NCBI RefSeq assembly: GCF_024294905.1
Contig: NZ_JANCOC010000004.1
Span: 1 to 64,000, forward strand
Direction of reading: 5' to 3'
DNA from: Rothia gullae
Lineage (GTDB): Bacteria; Actinomycetota; Actinomycetes; Actinomycetales; Micrococcaceae
DNA: 64,000 nucleotides
The notes under the pieces are model-generated. The model worked only from the letters and a program-made list of their open reading frames with translations. It had not been told where the DNA came from and did not search any database. Shown piece by piece: positions 19,189 to 25,802 of this stretch; position 1 is the stretch's first letter; each line of letters starts with the position of its first letter. The position numbers were made by a program, and so were the translations under genes.

Positions 19189-20412
19189 ATGGCTAAGGCA
19201 CTGTCCGAACTGCTCGAAGAAGGCGTCGCAGGCCGCCACGTTCTCGTCCGTTCCGACCTGAACGTACCCCTGAAGGACGGCATTGTCACCGACGACGGCC
19301 GCGTCCGCGCATCCCTGCCCGTCATTGAGAAGCTTGCCAAGGCTGGCGCACGCGTTATCGTGACCGCACACCTGGGCCGCCCCAAGGGCAAGGTCGACCC
19401 CCAGTACTCCATCGCACCGGCAGCTGCACGCCTGGCTGAGCTGGCATCCGTGCCTGTGAAGGTTGCAACCGACCTGGTAGGCGAGGATGCAAAGGCTAAG
19501 GCAGCAGCCCTGGCTGACGGTGAAGTTCTGGTCGTTGAGAACGTCCGCTACGACGCACGCGAAACCTCCAAAGATGACGCAGAGCGCGGCGAGTTCGCTG
19601 ACGAGCTGGTCGCACTGACCGGTGAGAACGGCGCATACGTGAACGACGCATTCGGTGCAGTTCACCGCAAGCACGCTTCCGTCTACGACGTTGCTAAGCG
19701 TCTGCCTGCATACCTGGGTGACCTGGTGAAGAAGGAAGTTGACGTTCTGGCTAAGACCCTGAACGATCCCGAGCGTCCCTTCGTTGTGGTCATGGGTGGC
19801 GCTAAGGTTTCCGATAAGCTCGCCGTGATCGACAACCTGATTGGTAAGGCTGACAGCATCCTCATTGGTGGCGGCATGGGCTACACCTTTGCATACGCAC
19901 AGGGCTACGAGGTTGGCCAGTCGCTGCTGGAGAAGGACCAGGTCGAGAACGTTCTGCGTTACCTGAAGGAAGCTCCCGAGAAGGGCACCGAGATCATCAC
20001 CGCTGTTGACGTGATCTGGGCTGACGCGTTCTCCGCTGATGCTAACACCGAGGTCCGCCCCGTTGAGGATCTGACCGGCGGTAAGCTGGGCGCAGAGGCT
20101 GAGGGCCTGGACATTGGCCCCAAGACCGCTGAGATTTTCGCTGAGAAGATCAAGGGCGCAAAGACCATCTTCTGGAACGGCCCCGTTGGCGTGTTCGAGA
20201 TTGCTCCCTTCGCTGAGGGTACCCGCGCGGTGGCACAGGCTATCGTCGACTCTGACGCATTCTCCATCATTGGTGGTGGCGACTCCGCTTCTGCAGTCCG
20301 TAACCTGGGCTTCAAGGATGAGCAGTTCGGCCACATCTCCACCGGTGGTGGAGCTTCCCTTGAGTACATTGAGGGTAAGACCCTGCCCGGCCTGGAGGCA
20401 CTAGGCGCCTAA
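19189..20412 (+). CDS. pgk: Phosphoglycerate kinase
   Basis: Pgk makes ATP from 1,3-bisphosphoglycerate. The 407-residue, two-domain enzyme shows VLVRSDLNVPLKDG, HLGRPKGKVDPQYS, ENVRYDARETSKDD, ILIGGGMGYTF, the FWNGPVGVFE hinge and IIGGGDSASAV. ATG 19189 follows a full AGGAGG seven bases upstream, so a longer frame from 19135 is not used. In most relatives tpiA follows directly; here a five-gene cassette intervenes. Confidence 0.97.
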   Translation: MAKALSELLEEGVAGRHVLVRSDLNVPLKDGIVTDDGRVRASLPVIEKLAKAGARVIVTAHLGRPKGKVDPQYSIAPAAARLAELASVPVKVATDLVGEDAKAKAAALADGEVLVVENVRYDARETSKDDAERGEFADELVALTGENGAYVNDAFGAVHRKHASVYDVAKRLPAYLGDLVKKEVDVLAKTLNDPERPFVVVMGGAKVSDKLAVIDNLIGKADSILIGGGMGYTFAYAQGYEVGQSLLEKDQVENVLRYLKEAPEKGTEIITAVDVIWADAFSADANTEVRPVEDLTGGKLGAEAEGLDIGPKTAEIFAEKIKGAKTIFWNGPVGVFEIAPFAEGTRAVAQAIVDSDAFSIIGGGDSASAVRNLGFKDEQFGHISTGGGASLEYIEGKTLPGLEALGA

Positions 20413-20451
20413 TCTGGGTGCACAGATTTAGTACACGGTTTTAGTGTAGGG

Positions 20452-20498
20452 AACCCCCGCCGGACAGTACTTTCGGTACTGCGCTGGCGGGGGTTTCT
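20452..20498 (+). terminator. Terminator after pgk
   Basis: AACCCCCGCC and its complement (20486-20495) enclose a second stem AGTAC-TTTC-GTACT and are followed by TTTCTTT. It ends the glycolytic transcript before the inserted cassette. Confidence 0.85.
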
Positions 20499-20963
20499 TT
20501 CTGGGCTTTTGAGATGGGCTCTTCGTGGCTGGCTGTGGGAGGTGGAAGCAGAGAGAGGTGGAATCCGTCCTACCGAGTTCGTGCGCAGAGTGTGCGTGTG
20601 TTACCTTGAAAGGTGTGTGATTCTCACTGTCACCGAGAGGGAGCACACATGCAACGAGTGTGAGCGAGGAAGCTCGTTCACTGTCACATCAACTTCCGGA
20701 AGTAAATATATGGTTACTTTTCAGGCTTATGCCGTCCCTGTACCTTTTCAAGGTGAGTACGCTGAGGTTCTCACAACGAGGCTCTCACGATGCGGCTCAA
20801 GCATCTAACTCAGACAAGTCAGATGTTGACTCGCTAAAGGTATTTATTCGTTTAATGATCTCATTTGTTATATGAACAATGAGTGTTCTTCTTAAGTTGA
20901 TGCATTAGATATTTCAACTTACAACAAATGTAGAAAATTTATGTAACCCCAAGGATTATTGCG
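20499..20963. other. Intergenic left flank of the inserted cassette
   Basis: About 465 bp with rising A/T content. Short frames at 20509-20808 and 20660-20875 lack ribosome-binding sites and recognisable content. The phrase TTCACTGTCACA, or close forms of it, recurs around 20630 and 20680. The last 120 bp is A/T-rich and is the likely promoter region for the gene at 20964. Confidence 0.5.
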
Positions 20964-21722
20964 GTGAGTATTATTTATCCTACTTCTCGTAGAAGACTTA
21001 TAAAGAGTGCGCTTGGAGTTAGTAGCGTCTTAGCTTTGAGTGCCTGCTCATCCACGCCAAAAACCAAAGAGAATAAATCAAAAGAAACCCCTTCGGCGAC
21101 AGCGAGCGCTTCTCCGAAGCATAATGCCTACGCAAAACCGTTTCATAATGATCGTGACTATCGACGAACATATGAAATCGGTGATATCAACAATATTGGT
21201 ATATATGAACCGGCAACGGAGGGACATCCCGCATACGCTGCACCGCCTCCATACTATGAGAACGCTTTTGAACGGGATATGACAGCAACCTCTATGCGCT
21301 ATGCCGTTACATATTACGCAAACTATCAGAACTACATGCTTCTAGCCGGTGATGCACGGCGACTCTATCTTAAAAATATGCTAGGAGGATTGTTCTTCCC
21401 CACCATTCAAGAACTCTACGACAAAGGCGCTGGCTGGGTTATTACCCCGAACCAGCGAATTCTTGCCCTCACGATTCTTGAACGTCAGCCCCGTATTGTG
21501 GATGAAGCAAATCACCTATGCGAAATTAACGTTCGATACGATCTGAACCGAGAAGCGAAAGTGTTTATCGCAGCGGAGAAAAAGCTCTACCCGATTACTG
21601 ATTTTGACACCCGCAACCTTGTTACAAACGGTTCCATCTACGGAACTATGGTGTGCCGATTCTTAGATCCAAAGTGGGAAGTGAACTTTACCCCCACAAA
21701 TGGCTCAACGCAGGGGAACTAA
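20964..21722 (+). CDS. Tat-type lipoprotein, cassette paralogue A1
   Basis: No function is known. The 252-residue product starts SRRRLIKSALGVSSVLALSAC, combining a twin-arginine motif at residues 8-14 with a lipobox ending at Cys28, so it should be exported folded and anchored as a lipoprotein. A 25-residue Ser/Lys/Thr/Ala linker follows. The folded part contains IYEPATEGHPAYAAPPPYY, YANYQNYMLLAGDARRL, GAGWVITPNQRI, DFDTRNL. The same landmarks occur in the three genes that follow, most closely in 22663-23262. GTG 20964 has AAGGA eight bases upstream. Base composition is more A/T-rich than pgk or tpiA. Remote similarity to DUF6318-type actinobacterial lipoproteins is my inference. Confidence 0.8.
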   Translation: MSIIYPTSRRRLIKSALGVSSVLALSACSSTPKTKENKSKETPSATASASPKHNAYAKPFHNDRDYRRTYEIGDINNIGIYEPATEGHPAYAAPPPYYENAFERDMTATSMRYAVTYYANYQNYMLLAGDARRLYLKNMLGGLFFPTIQELYDKGAGWVITPNQRILALTILERQPRIVDEANHLCEINVRYDLNREAKVFIAAEKKLYPITDFDTRNLVTNGSIYGTMVCRFLDPKWEVNFTPTNGSTQGN

Positions 21723-21737
21723 AGGAAAGGAAACACA

Positions 21738-22604
21738 ATGAAGGAAAACAATAACACCCCTGTTTCTTGGGAATCCTCAACCGGCGATAACCCATCAGAG
21801 CAGAAGAAGAACCCCAAAATCTCTCGTCGTGCCCTGTTACTGGGATCTGCTGTGGTAGGTACCGCTGCGGCATCAGGTCTGTATGTAGCTGGCTCAAACT
21901 TAAAATTTTCGTCAAACGAACGAACCTCGCAAGAAGATACCGCGTGGAAACGAAACCAGGCACTAGCCGCAGCCGAACCCACAACAAAAATTGCAGACGA
22001 AGACAATAAGAACGCTGCAGGAGGGCTATACGGTCGGCTGGTGTACACCGCATACCGCAAGGACGGTCTCTACGTTCCCGCAACCCGTGAGAGCCCCGCA
22101 CAGAATGTACCCTACCCGGTTATCCAGGAGAAGATGAATACATACGATATTTCAGGTATGTACTTGTTCTTTGCCTACTATAATGCCGCCAAGAACTACG
22201 GGTATTTGACCGGTGACCTTGAGCCCCTAGCAAAGATAGTTGACCCCGAAAAAGTTATCTTTTCTAATGTGTACGAATTTATCGCCAATAACCAGGGGTG
22301 GATTGTTTCGGACCAAGAAATTGAATCGTATATGGTGCAAACCCCCGGATACGGTAGTCGAGAGATTCAGGGACGAAAAATATACAAGATGCAGACGGAA
22401 TTGTCGATATATGGAGACGCTTATTTTGTGTATCGCGATACCGGCGAAGTGAAGTATTTTCGGGATATGTTTCATACTGACCGACACCCGACTATAAATT
22501 TCTACGGCGAGTTTTTGGACGGACGCTGGGTAAGCGTTGACGAAAATCTGCAGGGCGATCTCTTATTACCCAAGGGTGCTTCTGTGGCTGGATATATGAA
22601 ATAG
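21738..22604 (+). CDS. Tat-exported protein, cassette paralogue B1
   Basis: Function unknown. The 288-residue product has a 28-residue polar N terminus, then ISRRALLLGSAVVGTAAASGLYVAG, a twin-arginine signal or anchor without a lipobox cysteine. The mature part holds LVYTAYRKDGLYVPATRESP, AQNVPYPVIQEKM, YYNAAKNYGYLTGDLEPLAKIV, NNQGWIVSDQEIES. The PAT...PA...P..P and NYGYLTGD..PL pattern resembles DUF6318 proteins. It matches 23265-24143 most closely (LVYTAYxxxGxYVPATxExxAQNVPYPV) and the A-type genes more weakly. It starts 15 bases after A1 behind AAAGGAAAG, so it is co-transcribed. Confidence 0.8.
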   Translation: MKENNNTPVSWESSTGDNPSEQKKNPKISRRALLLGSAVVGTAAASGLYVAGSNLKFSSNERTSQEDTAWKRNQALAAAEPTTKIADEDNKNAAGGLYGRLVYTAYRKDGLYVPATRESPAQNVPYPVIQEKMNTYDISGMYLFFAYYNAAKNYGYLTGDLEPLAKIVDPEKVIFSNVYEFIANNQGWIVSDQEIESYMVQTPGYGSREIQGRKIYKMQTELSIYGDAYFVYRDTGEVKYFRDMFHTDRHPTINFYGEFLDGRWVSVDENLQGDLLLPKGASVAGYMK

Positions 22605-22662
22605 GTTCATGAATTCAAATTATCGTTAGGTAATGAGAGATATATTTTAGAAAGGAGAGGAA

Positions 22663-23262
22663 ATGACTGTCGACCCGGAGTGGACTAAAAAATTCTTCAA
22701 TCAAGAAGACTATAGGGGAGAATACCATCTTGTCGATACTGACATGATTGGGGTTCACGCCCCAGCTAACCAGGAGCATCCTGCATATTCCTCACCTATA
22801 CCGGGATATGTTTTCTCATACAATCCTATATTTACAGTTCAAATTTTAAAATATTTCTGTGAATATTATTATGGATGCCAAAACTATATGCTTTTGGCAT
22901 CCGATTCGCGCCGCCTCGAATATGCAATGACCGCCCAAGAACTATTCTTCCCCGCCATTCAAGATATCTTTGATGAGGGAAAAGGCTGGGTTATCACCCC
23001 CAACCAACAAATCTTGACCATGCACATTCTCGAAGCACAACCGCGCATCCATAACGAAGAACAAAAAATCTTCGACTGGAACGTCAAATTCGACATCCTC
23101 CCTGAAGCTAAAGTCTTCCGCAAGGATACCGGGCAGCTACAGCCCATCGCCGACTTTGATACGCGCGGACTCCTCCGCGACGGAGCAATCCACGGCACCC
23201 TGCGCTCCCGTTTCCTTAACCCCGGATGGGACATCCACTTCATCCCCGAAAAGGAGGCCTAA
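22663..23262 (+). CDS. Cassette paralogue A2, lacking a signal peptide
   Basis: A 199-residue copy of the A1 mature domain: HPAYSSPIPGY, YYGCQNYMLLASDSRRLEYA, LFFPAIQDIFDEGKGWVITPNQQIL, ILEAQPRIHNEE, PIADFDTRGLLRDGAIHGTLRSRFLNPGWDIHF. It begins MTVDPEWTKKFFNQEDYRGEYHLVD directly after AAAGGAGAGG, with no twin-arginine signal, hydrophobic stretch or lipobox, and none is encoded in the 58 bases upstream. It is either a cytoplasmic member or a 5'-truncated duplicate with a new start. The intact reading frame and good ribosome-binding site argue that it is translated. Confidence 0.75.
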   Translation: MTVDPEWTKKFFNQEDYRGEYHLVDTDMIGVHAPANQEHPAYSSPIPGYVFSYNPIFTVQILKYFCEYYYGCQNYMLLASDSRRLEYAMTAQELFFPAIQDIFDEGKGWVITPNQQILTMHILEAQPRIHNEEQKIFDWNVKFDILPEAKVFRKDTGQLQPIADFDTRGLLRDGAIHGTLRSRFLNPGWDIHFIPEKEA

Positions 23263-23264
23263 CC

Positions 23265-24143
23265 ATGGGGCCCCAACGCAAAGAACAGGAGACGAACGGA
23301 ACGCTGGGTTCCTCCCCGGAAGCTCCGCCGGCATCTTCTGGTCAGCTACTCGCTCATCAGCAGGAACCGCGGAAGCCCCGCTTTTCTCGTCGTGCCCTCG
23401 CAATAGCAGGCGTAGGAACCCTCGGTGCCGTCATCGCCGGTCGGCAGACCGGTATCCTCGCCACCAATGAGGAAAAGCACGAAGCGCGCCTTCTTAAACG
23501 AGATAGAGCACTTATCGAGCTGGCACCTGAACAAAAATTTGATGATTATGTAGACAGTGGAAGTTCATCCGGTCTGCTCGTGTACACCGCCTACGAACGC
23601 AACGGCAGGTACGTGCCCGCTACCGAAGAGCGTGCCGCTCAGAATGTGCCTTACCCCGTTCTGCAGCCAGGTATTGATGAATATAGTCGCGGTGGTTTTT
23701 ATACTTTCCAAGCATATTTTTATGCTGCCCTGAACTATTTCTACTACACGGGAGATACCAAACCACTATCCAAAGTAGTTACCCCTGAAAAAGTGGTATC
23801 TAAAGAGATTCTTGAAATGTATCAGAGAAACCTTGGGTGGATTGTTTCTGCCCAGGATCTCTACCAGGTTAGAATTAGGATTCCCGGAATCGGTACGCGG
23901 TCTAAAAACCGTCGCAAGATATATCAATACCAGGGATCCACTTTTATCCCTGAGGATGCATTTTTCTGTGTACGGCAGACAGGAGAGAAACTACCTATCA
24001 ATAAGTTCTTGAAGACCGGCGAGGAGGAATATGTATTCCTTTATGCGGAGCACCTGCGCGGCCGCTGGGTGCTGGTGGAAGACGATAAGGACGCCACGCC
24101 GTTGTACCCTCCGGGATTCTCCCTCGAAGGGCTAGAGGTATAA
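23265..24143 (+). CDS. Tat-exported protein, cassette paralogue B2
   Basis: A 292-residue relative of B1. A 40-residue polar N terminus precedes FSRRALAIAGVGTLGAVIAG, a twin-arginine hydrophobic segment. The mature part has LLVYTAYERNGRYVPATEE, AQNVPYPVLQPGI, YFYAALNYFYYTGDTKPLSKVV, RNLGWIVSAQDLY and a C-terminal GRWVLVEDD. ATG 23265 is two bases after the A2 stop and is served by AAGGAGG inside A2, so A2 and B2 are translationally close. An upstream in-frame ATG at 23226 overlaps A2 and is rejected. The A-B-A-B order suggests duplication of a two-gene unit. Confidence 0.8.
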   Translation: MGPQRKEQETNGTLGSSPEAPPASSGQLLAHQQEPRKPRFSRRALAIAGVGTLGAVIAGRQTGILATNEEKHEARLLKRDRALIELAPEQKFDDYVDSGSSSGLLVYTAYERNGRYVPATEERAAQNVPYPVLQPGIDEYSRGGFYTFQAYFYAALNYFYYTGDTKPLSKVVTPEKVVSKEILEMYQRNLGWIVSAQDLYQVRIRIPGIGTRSKNRRKIYQYQGSTFIPEDAFFCVRQTGEKLPINKFLKTGEEEYVFLYAEHLRGRWVLVEDDKDATPLYPPGFSLEGLEV

Positions 24144-24212
24144 GATCCCATCTTCCCGGTAGTCGCACGACATCATCGATAACCACACCACATCAACCAC
24201 CCTAGGAGACAT

Positions 24213-24782
24213 ATGGAACAGTCACCCCAGAACCCCGGTGAGCCCGCGCAGGATAGCACCATGCAAGCTAGCACCGTGCAGGGCAGCCCCTTGCCGGAGA
24301 ATACTGCGCAGAGCAATGCTGTACAGGAAAACACCGTGCGGAACAACGCTGCAGAAAGCACCACGGTAGAAGCCAGTGCAGTACCTACCGCGACCGTCCT
24401 CCAGAGCCCCGCGCAAGACCCCGCCGTAGATGGTGCCGCCCCCGCAGAGCCTAAGCGCATGGGCCTGTATGCACTCGTCTGTATCCCGGCTGCAGTTCCA
24501 CTAGGAGCATCTATCGGCGGGATACCTCTAATGTGGCTGTACCTGACGTATACGACAGGTCCTAACGCAACACCGCTGATTATCATGAGCATCATCATCT
24601 GGGCGTGCGTTGCGTTCGCATACTGTGCCCTCGTCGCCTGGATTACCGAAGCAATCGCCACTCGCAAGCTACCTTGGGCACAATCTCTCGGCAAATGCGC
24701 ACGAGCGATGGCACTCGATACAATCATCATCACCATCATCATTCTCTGTCTGACTGCATCTGTCGTAGGAAACCGCTACTAA
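24213..24782 (+). CDS. Small membrane protein with Thr/Ala/Gln/Asn-rich N terminus
   Basis: Not recognised. The 189-residue product has about 80 N-terminal residues built of loosely repeated blocks such as NTAQSNAVQENTVRNN and STTVEASAVPTATV, with no hydrophobic segment. After PAEPKRMGLYALVCIP, three to four membrane helices follow (about residues 82-115, 122-148 and 165-185). It follows B2 by 69 bases behind TAGGAG and closes the cassette. A hairpin at 24813 comes next. It may anchor or assist the four exported proteins, but only position supports that. Confidence 0.65.
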   Translation: MEQSPQNPGEPAQDSTMQASTVQGSPLPENTAQSNAVQENTVRNNAAESTTVEASAVPTATVLQSPAQDPAVDGAAPAEPKRMGLYALVCIPAAVPLGASIGGIPLMWLYLTYTTGPNATPLIIMSIIIWACVAFAYCALVAWITEAIATRKLPWAQSLGKCARAMALDTIIITIIILCLTASVVGNRY

Positions 24783-25025: not shown

Positions 25026-25802
25026 ATGTCGCGTAAGCCCCTCATCGCAGGCAACTGGAAGATGAACCTCAACCACGCAGAGGCAGTCACCCTCGTCCAG
25101 AAGCTCGCATGGACCCTCGACGACGCAAACTTCAACTTCTCCGCAACCGAAGTAGCCGTCTTCCCGCCCTTCACCGACATCCGTTCCGTGCAGACCCTCG
25201 TCGAAGGCGACAAGCTGGACATCCTCTACGGCGGCCAGGACCTCTCCGTCCACGACTCCGGCGCATACACCGGCGAAATCTCCGGCGCATTCCTCTCCAA
25301 GCTCGGCGCAACCTTCGTGCTCGTCGGCCACTCCGAGCGCCGCACCTACCACCACGAAAGCGACGAGCTGTGCGCAGCAAAGGTTCAGGCAGCATACAAG
25401 CACGGCCTGACCCCCGTCCTCTGCGTCGGTGAGCCCCTCGAAATCCGCGAAGCAGGCACCCACGTCGAGTACACTCTCGAGCAGTTGCGTGGCTCCATCG
25501 CAGGTCTGACCGCTGAGCAGGCAGAAACCCTCGTCATCGCATACGAGCCCGTCTGGGCAATTGGCACCGGCAAGGTTGCAACCGCAGACGACGCACAGGA
25601 AATGTCCGCAGCAATCCGCGCAGAAATCGCTAAGCTCTACTCCGCAGACGTTGCAGAGAAGGTTCGCGTTCTCTACGGCGGCTCCGTCAAGTCCTCCTCC
25701 GCACCCTCCATCATGGGCAAGGAAGACGTGGACGGCGTGCTCGTCGGCGGCGCATCCCTGCAGGCTGACGAATTCGCAGCAATCGCACGTTTCGACGCAT
25801 AA
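25026..25802 (+). CDS. tpiA: Triosephosphate isomerase
   Basis: TpiA interconverts dihydroxyacetone phosphate and glyceraldehyde 3-phosphate. The 258-residue TIM barrel has [13 protein letters not shown] (active Lys), the [15 protein letters not shown] loop (catalytic His), [15 protein letters not shown] (catalytic Glu and loop 6) and the phosphate-binding [11 protein letters not shown] and [13 protein letters not shown] 25026 follows AAGGAG. Codon bias is extreme, as in gap and pgk. The gene presumably followed pgk before the cassette was inserted and now needs its own promoter, which must lie in 24851-25025. Confidence 0.97.

Follow-up and report, generated by a model that had tools for sequence, protein, structure and literature searches.

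A variable-number array of paired DUF6318 genes between pgk and tpiA in Rothia, tentatively read as an immunity array

The sequence studied here, called the window, is the whole stretch of 64,000 nucleotides from Rothia gullae (contig NZ_JANCOC010000004.1, positions 1 to 64,000). Between pgk and tpiA it carries four genes of DUF6318, a family of unknown function, in the order A1, B1, A2, B2, followed by a membrane protein gene. The A-B pair behaves as a module, present or absent as whole pairs. From sequence comparison and analogy, the array can tentatively, with the judgement falling slightly on the doubtful side, be read as an orphan immunity array directed at lipase toxins that act on the envelope, resembling TilA of Staphylococcus aureus. 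The features of the region are the following (aa, amino acids).

19189..20412, + strand: pgk, left flank, outside the cassette
~20448..20500, + strand: terminator-like hairpin, very strong, with a T-rich tail (66-nt stretch 20440-20505, -39.3 kcal/mol)
20964..21722, + strand: A1, DUF6318, 252 aa, GTG start, twin-arginine lipoprotein signal
21738..22604, + strand: B1, DUF6318, 288 aa, twin-arginine signal or anchor, 15 bp 3' of A1
22663..23262, + strand: A2, DUF6318, 199 aa, without export signal
22753..22887, + strand: variable block of A2, residues 31-75 (identity windows against the G001 and G044 orthologues)
23265..24143, + strand: B2, DUF6318, 292 aa, twin-arginine signal or anchor, 2 bp 3' of A2
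23760..23984, + strand: variable block of B2, residues 166-240 (identity windows against the G001 and G044 orthologues)
24213..24782, + strand: gene of a 189-aa membrane protein, without family match
25026..25802, + strand: tpiA, right flank, outside the cassette

All four A and B proteins scored above the Pfam cut-off of 23.8 bits for DUF6318 (PF19843; A1 45.2, B1 100.4, A2 38.5 and B2 112.5 bits), and a Pfam scan of the window proteins at E<=1 found no other accepted domain in them. Against 300 shuffles, the identity of A1 with A2 (88 of 189 positions) gave a z of 92 and that of B1 with B2 (85 of 192) a z of 70; the four A-B comparisons gave z values of 8-15. By sequence, A and B are thus distant but real relatives, and the grouping of the first gene with the third and the second with the fourth, made in an earlier note on this DNA, is borne out. 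The duplication of a two-gene unit proposed there is supported, and extends to a variation in pair number between genomes, one of which lacks almost exactly the A1-B1 pair.

In G001 the array runs B0, A-beta, B-beta, A-gamma, B-gamma, A1, B1, A2, B2, membrane gene; G044 has the same order minus A1-B1, and G010 has A-gamma and B-gamma. The number of pairs between pgk and tpiA is four plus a lone B (G001), three plus a lone B (G044), two (window), one (G010) or none, and the stretch missing from G044 relative to the window is almost exactly 20930-22586. With gene starts taken as those with a Shine-Dalgarno match, the gap within a pair is -4, 2 or 14-16 bp and that from B to the next A 58 to 591 bp, and all four pair types keep the close A-B spacing. 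Directly 3' of pgk the window matches the sequence that follows pgk in G001; from 20450 on it matches the sequence that follows B-gamma there. The hairpin lying at this junction has copies in G001 after pgk, B-beta and B-gamma (80-84% over 51 bp), which suggests that blocks may be gained or lost by recombination at the hairpin copies. The suggestion that A and B act as partners draws support, at the level of sequence, from the spacing, the joint presence and absence, and a similar pairing in a second genome described below.

The interval itself is ordinarily short. The gene tpiA was found in 34 of the 35 Rothia genomes searched, and the distance between the ends of the tblastn matches to pgk and tpiA was measured in 32 (20 + 12), two further tpiA-bearing genomes standing outside the count. 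In 27 of these 32 the gap measures 36-278 bp, so that the block does split a normally close pair of genes. Three of the remaining five genomes carry DUF6318 genes there (G001 nine, G044 seven, G010 two). In G021 the gap is 684 bp and its sole match corresponds to residues 75-185 of the membrane protein, with no open frame above 116 codons. In G011 it is 1742 bp and is occupied by a 488-aa open reading frame (ORF) without Pfam match (L065:13511-14977), which shows that the interval takes different inserts. Occupation of the interval by the same genes in every genome, which would have spoken against an insertion, is thus not observed. An R. mucilaginosa region linked to human ABO type, for which the available part of the source names a 3-isopropylmalate dehydrogenase gene (PMC12979206), was considered and rejected as the same locus; four genomes have leuB-like matches, none of which reaches the family cut-off, and these are not at tpiA.

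The block is more A/T-rich than its flanks, as had been noted: the G+C fraction (GC) is 0.46-0.52 for A1 to B2, 0.61-0.62 for pgk and tpiA and 0.593 for the whole window. The same note called the block laterally acquired or lineage-specific. The second description is supported; the first, as import from outside the genus, is not, the best relatives being other Rothia DUF6318 genes. Transfer within Rothia is possible, because low GC is common to the array, to the A and B relatives of G011 and to the toxin tip of G011. A phage or plasmid origin was rejected: searches of 50,697 phage and 72,556 plasmid records gave nothing for B2, and viral contigs nothing for A. No insertion target was found as a tRNA (search of 18-27 kb) or as an Rfam element (18.5-26.5 kb). 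As to the terminator that had been assigned to the block, a consensus scan gave three terminator-like sites, all on the - strand, against 4.9 expected by chance, and the strong hairpin with a T-rich tail lies between pgk and A1, at about 20448-20500.

The alleles differ in blocks. Between the window and its relatives, synonymous divergence (dS) is 0.31-0.70 for the A and B genes and 0.07-0.31 for pgk and tpiA. In A2, the 30-residue windows starting at residues 31 and 46 are 37-40% identical to the G001 and G044 orthologues, adjoining ones 77% and the rest 93-100%; in B2, the windows starting at 166-211 are 37-53% identical. The window departs from G001/G044 in residues 31-75 of A2 and in residues 166-240 of B2. 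When G001 and G044 are set against each other, the A2 blocks are the same, and the B2 blocks agree fully to about residue 196, beyond which identity drops to 63%. Among the B2 relatives examined (10 + five more), two main block types are seen repeatedly, and by eye P0007 and P0021 resemble chimaeras of A paralogues. The pattern is read as block exchange between paralogues and alleles. Positive selection was rejected as the cause of the divergence, the ratio of non-synonymous to synonymous rates (dN/dS) being 0.17-0.22 for the A and B genes of the window against their relatives.

Motifs that we take to be twin-arginine and lipoprotein signals were read by eye on A1, B1 and B2; A1 has a twin-arginine lipoprotein signal, B1 and B2 a twin arginine and then a hydrophobic stretch. 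A2 is without an export signal: its start is preceded by an in-frame stop at a distance of 12 nt, and the space between B1 and A2 is only 58 nt. Of the four exported proteins announced in the heading of the note, the three twin-arginine signals that its text counts stand, that of A1 also as a lipoprotein signal, and A2 drops out. TatC was found in all five genomes searched.

The closest link to a toxin comes from G011, where an array X Y X Y X Y is arranged convergently, X on the plus and Y on the minus strand (L098:7401-12152, L125:142-6636). All six proteins have a twin arginine about 19 residues ahead of a lipobox cysteine. When 123 other DUF6318-like ORFs from the fetched stretches were ranked with the B profile, the top three were X (130-140 bits, the next 98.5); with the A profile the top three were Y (63-72 bits), followed by X at 47-58, a small margin (63.0 against 58.4 bits). 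A tree built from 55 of 105 domain rows supported A (100/100), B (100/99), X (100/93), Y (100/99) and B+X (97/93), and a clade of X+Y was rejected by the approximately unbiased (AU) test (p 0.028). The kinship of B with X is well supported by these sequence comparisons, and that of A with Y is the best of several readings.

The first 11 bp of the last Y gene lie within the 3' end of a gene for a 2164-aa Rhs protein with 15 RHS repeats and a C-terminal GHSQGG motif behind a DPWGL motif. The C-terminus gave matches to PGAP1, Lipase_3 and Cutinase near the Pfam cut-offs, and the toxin tip (GC 0.38) and the X/Y array (0.46) are both AT-rich. An immunity gene usually lies directly behind the 3' end of its toxin gene. 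For 21 Rhs ORFs the fetched stretch includes the 3' end, and behind 15 of these an ORF of at least 90 aa starts on the same strand at -22 to +64 bp; two of the six without a close follower are pieces of interrupted genes. Two other Rhs genes of G011 have runs of five and four ORFs behind them, all from a single paralogous family, 164-253 aa (L128:9568-13630, L131:12039-15422). These nine are apparently amplified immunity genes of another kind, and they show that genes in the immunity slot do multiply in this genome. A further Rhs gene has a DUF6318 gene at a distance of 3.8 kb behind it (L095). In the available part of PMC3667864, Rhs proteins are described as having a DPxGL motif ahead of their variable tips.

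Read as immunity, the evidence would fit the following course. A native, strongly amplified DUF6318 family has formed a two-gene module, A then B, kept as an array of variable number between pgk and tpiA, the repeated hairpins presumably serving as recombination sites. B and A1 would be placed at the outer side of the membrane, where they would bind and block lipase-type tips from neighbouring bacteria, different A-B pairs matching different toxin variants. Leaderless A2-like proteins would either work intracellularly or leave with B through the twin-arginine translocation (Tat) system. If this is true, the amplified family of an abundant human oral commensal is a repertoire of toxin shields, and competition between strains in the mouth can be put to the test; paired A and B modules and terminator-like hairpin swap points would be added to what is known of immunity arrays.

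Several known systems, described here from the available parts of the papers cited, resemble the array in some respects. In S. aureus the tandem TilA/DUF576 lipoproteins neutralise TslA, a phospholipase (lipase toxin) of the type VII secretion system (T7SS); their genes are likewise tandem, variable in number and divergent, some beside the lipase toxin gene (PMC10730906). The Rothia proteins differ in belonging to DUF6318, in having two different partners per unit and in that the Rhs toxin lies in another genome, their own immunity role being conjectural; the window proteins gave no match to the DUF576 profile (Pfam scan, E<=1). In the T7SS immunity arrays of esaG and tipC, strings of non-identical paralogues are reported to exchange blocks and to gain and lose copies (PMC9484751), and the tandem, divergent paralogues of variable number in Rothia share this trait of immunity arrays; judging from the part of that source available, each array there consists of one family, whereas Rothia has A-B pairs and no cognate toxin beside the window array. 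The DUF6318 proteins may well be NTF2-like, to judge from the look of their structural models. NTF2-fold immunity proteins and lipase-like toxin tips have both been described, but the partners of the former are nuclease or JAB toxins in the table of that source (PMC3482391), and the Imm-NTF2 profiles matched no window protein (Pfam scan, E<=1). A profile search of solved structures gave no convincing relative (best E 0.068), and Foldseek with B2 gave nothing at E<=0.001. In the available part of PMC12483513, RdnE and RdnI are an effector-immunity pair of Rothia dentocariosa, also an oral Rothia, and RdnI protects against a foreign effector; RdnE is a DNA nuclease. Anti-phage defence was rejected, none of the five block proteins having a match in PADLOC-DB at E<=0.1.

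Several observations weigh against immunity. The link to a toxin is confined to a single locus of a single genome, a lead and not a pattern: the window array is flanked by pgk and tpiA, a toxin C-terminus adjoins one Y relative in G011 only, and no relative of the lipase tip is found among the window ORFs. DUF6318 accounts for only one of the 15 close Rhs followers. The number of Rhs genes was rejected as a correlate of the number of DUF6318 genes, G001 having 38 DUF6318 genes and no Rhs match and G019 five DUF6318 genes and 90 Rhs repeat matches. The A+Y clade reached a support of only 85/67, and A+X (0.226) and A+B (0.258) were not rejected by the AU test. In the A alignment, 12 of 14 rows are without an export signal, a poor fit with a toxin acting outside the cell. 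All orthologous A and B comparisons gave a dN/dS of 0.03-0.27, which is purifying and carries no average sign of positive selection. Finally, in genomes with at most seven DUF6318 copies, a PKD-like secreted partner stands directly 3' of 30 of 41 DUF6318 ORFs (Rothia 9 of 12, other genera 21 of 29; loci L006-L028, L163-L183).

This last observation leads to the main rival, which we consider unlikely, though it is the strongest of the alternatives: an ancestral operon of DUF6318 and a PKD-like protein would have lost the partner in oral Rothia, A and B now pairing as partner or anchor lipoproteins in a surface complex unrelated to toxins. The family was found in 141 of 149 Micrococcaceae genomes (9 of them Rothia), mostly in one or two copies and at most seven outside Rothia, as would be expected of a housekeeping family; within this survey the count for G001 is a lower bound. 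High copy numbers occur in seven of 35 Rothia genomes (G001 38, G011 36, G002 33, G010 25, G044 23, G021 10, G016 9), the other 28 having 0-5. In the multi-copy Rothia the partner lies directly 3' of only 11 of 135 DUF6318 ORFs, none of the 11 in a pgk-tpiA array, and in the window every DUF6318 gene is adjoined 3' by another DUF6318 gene or by the membrane protein gene. The loss of the old partner in the oral Rothia expansion can be inferred from these counts, in which short flanks may hide some partners and the PKD matches are weak and below cut-off. The partner counts used a profile of the DUF6318 domain only, and the members of the pgk-tpiA array and the 123-ORF set were found with an earlier profile. 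The domain-only profile was adopted because the apparent DUF6318 match L158:35-799 seems to be a thioredoxin-like lipoprotein picked up by way of its signal region. The partner is about 300 aa and its gene often overlaps that of the low-copy DUF6318 lipoprotein (e.g. L163:5576-7397, L171:6939-10189); in G174 two such units stand in tandem, and behind them lies a third DUF6318 gene whose partner is not confirmed; the tandem units also speak for this rival. A toxin-free surface complex nevertheless leaves unexplained why an A relative overlaps the Rhs-lipase gene and why number and blocks vary so strongly at pgk-tpiA.

Within immunity, a two-protein form appears improbable. Leaderless A and twin-arginine B would fold together in the cytoplasm and cross by Tat with A as passenger, the pair would recognise the toxin tip, and whole pairs would be the unit of specificity swapped between hairpins. 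The close pairs, the leaderless starts of A and the joint difference of the A2 and B2 blocks between the window and G001/G044 point this way, the last being in effect one comparison of linked genes. The B of the gamma pair is without a twin arginine in two of three genomes, and for this reason hitchhiking with B cannot be general.

A role as surface antigens or adhesins that recombination has diversified under pressure from host or phage is just as doubtful. Block-mosaic alleles among the 10 B2 relatives and the five more, and the high copy number in some Rothia, would be expected of such proteins; the low dN/dS, the many A rows without an export signal and DUF6318 as the sole accepted domain would not. 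Least probable is a neutral expansion in which tandem duplicates of little function persist since repeated hairpins ease gain and loss, for despite the presence/absence variation at pgk-tpiA and the many short or interrupted copies in G002, the frames are open, dN/dS is low in the compared orthologous pairs and the close A-B spacing is kept in every pair type.

The fifth gene of the block had been described as encoding a small membrane protein, which agrees with a 189-aa product (24213-24782) whose N-terminus is rich in Ser, Thr, Ala and Pro and which has several membrane spans, as judged by eye; it had no family match in the Pfam scan. The gene is present in G001 and G044, has a partial match in G021 and is not found in G010.

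The lipase tip has relatives in 34 of 35 Rothia genomes. At the four such loci examined, a 668-791-aa protein stands beside one of 187-214 aa with no adjoining DUF6318 gene (L158:6902-9890, L159:5968-8787, L160:5766-8679, L162:6065-8674), possibly a secreted lipase with its partner; the L158 pair is without Pfam match.

No paper naming DUF6318 was found in the literature searched, and among the literature on Rothia with Rhs, polymorphic-toxin, tandem-lipoprotein and pangenome terms, taken by title, none describes the pgk-tpiA array. In the protein set, A2 has 22 relatives at E<=0.001 among 48 candidates, 50-96% identical, one of them in R. mucilaginosa 141_RMUC. For B2 the number is 532, with a listing of the best 120; R. 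mucilaginosa is the source name of some, and the window resembles that species. Three B2 relatives (P0075, P0083, P0123) bear names such as glycine/betaine ABC transporter permease, which misfit the DUF6318 domain. The DUF6318 array of G002 (L099:5751-18497) contains many short or interrupted copies, from decay or assembly error. A further array in G001 (L081:7935-17358) consists of ten consecutive twin-arginine DUF6318 lipoprotein genes and has an eight-gene counterpart in G010 (L089).

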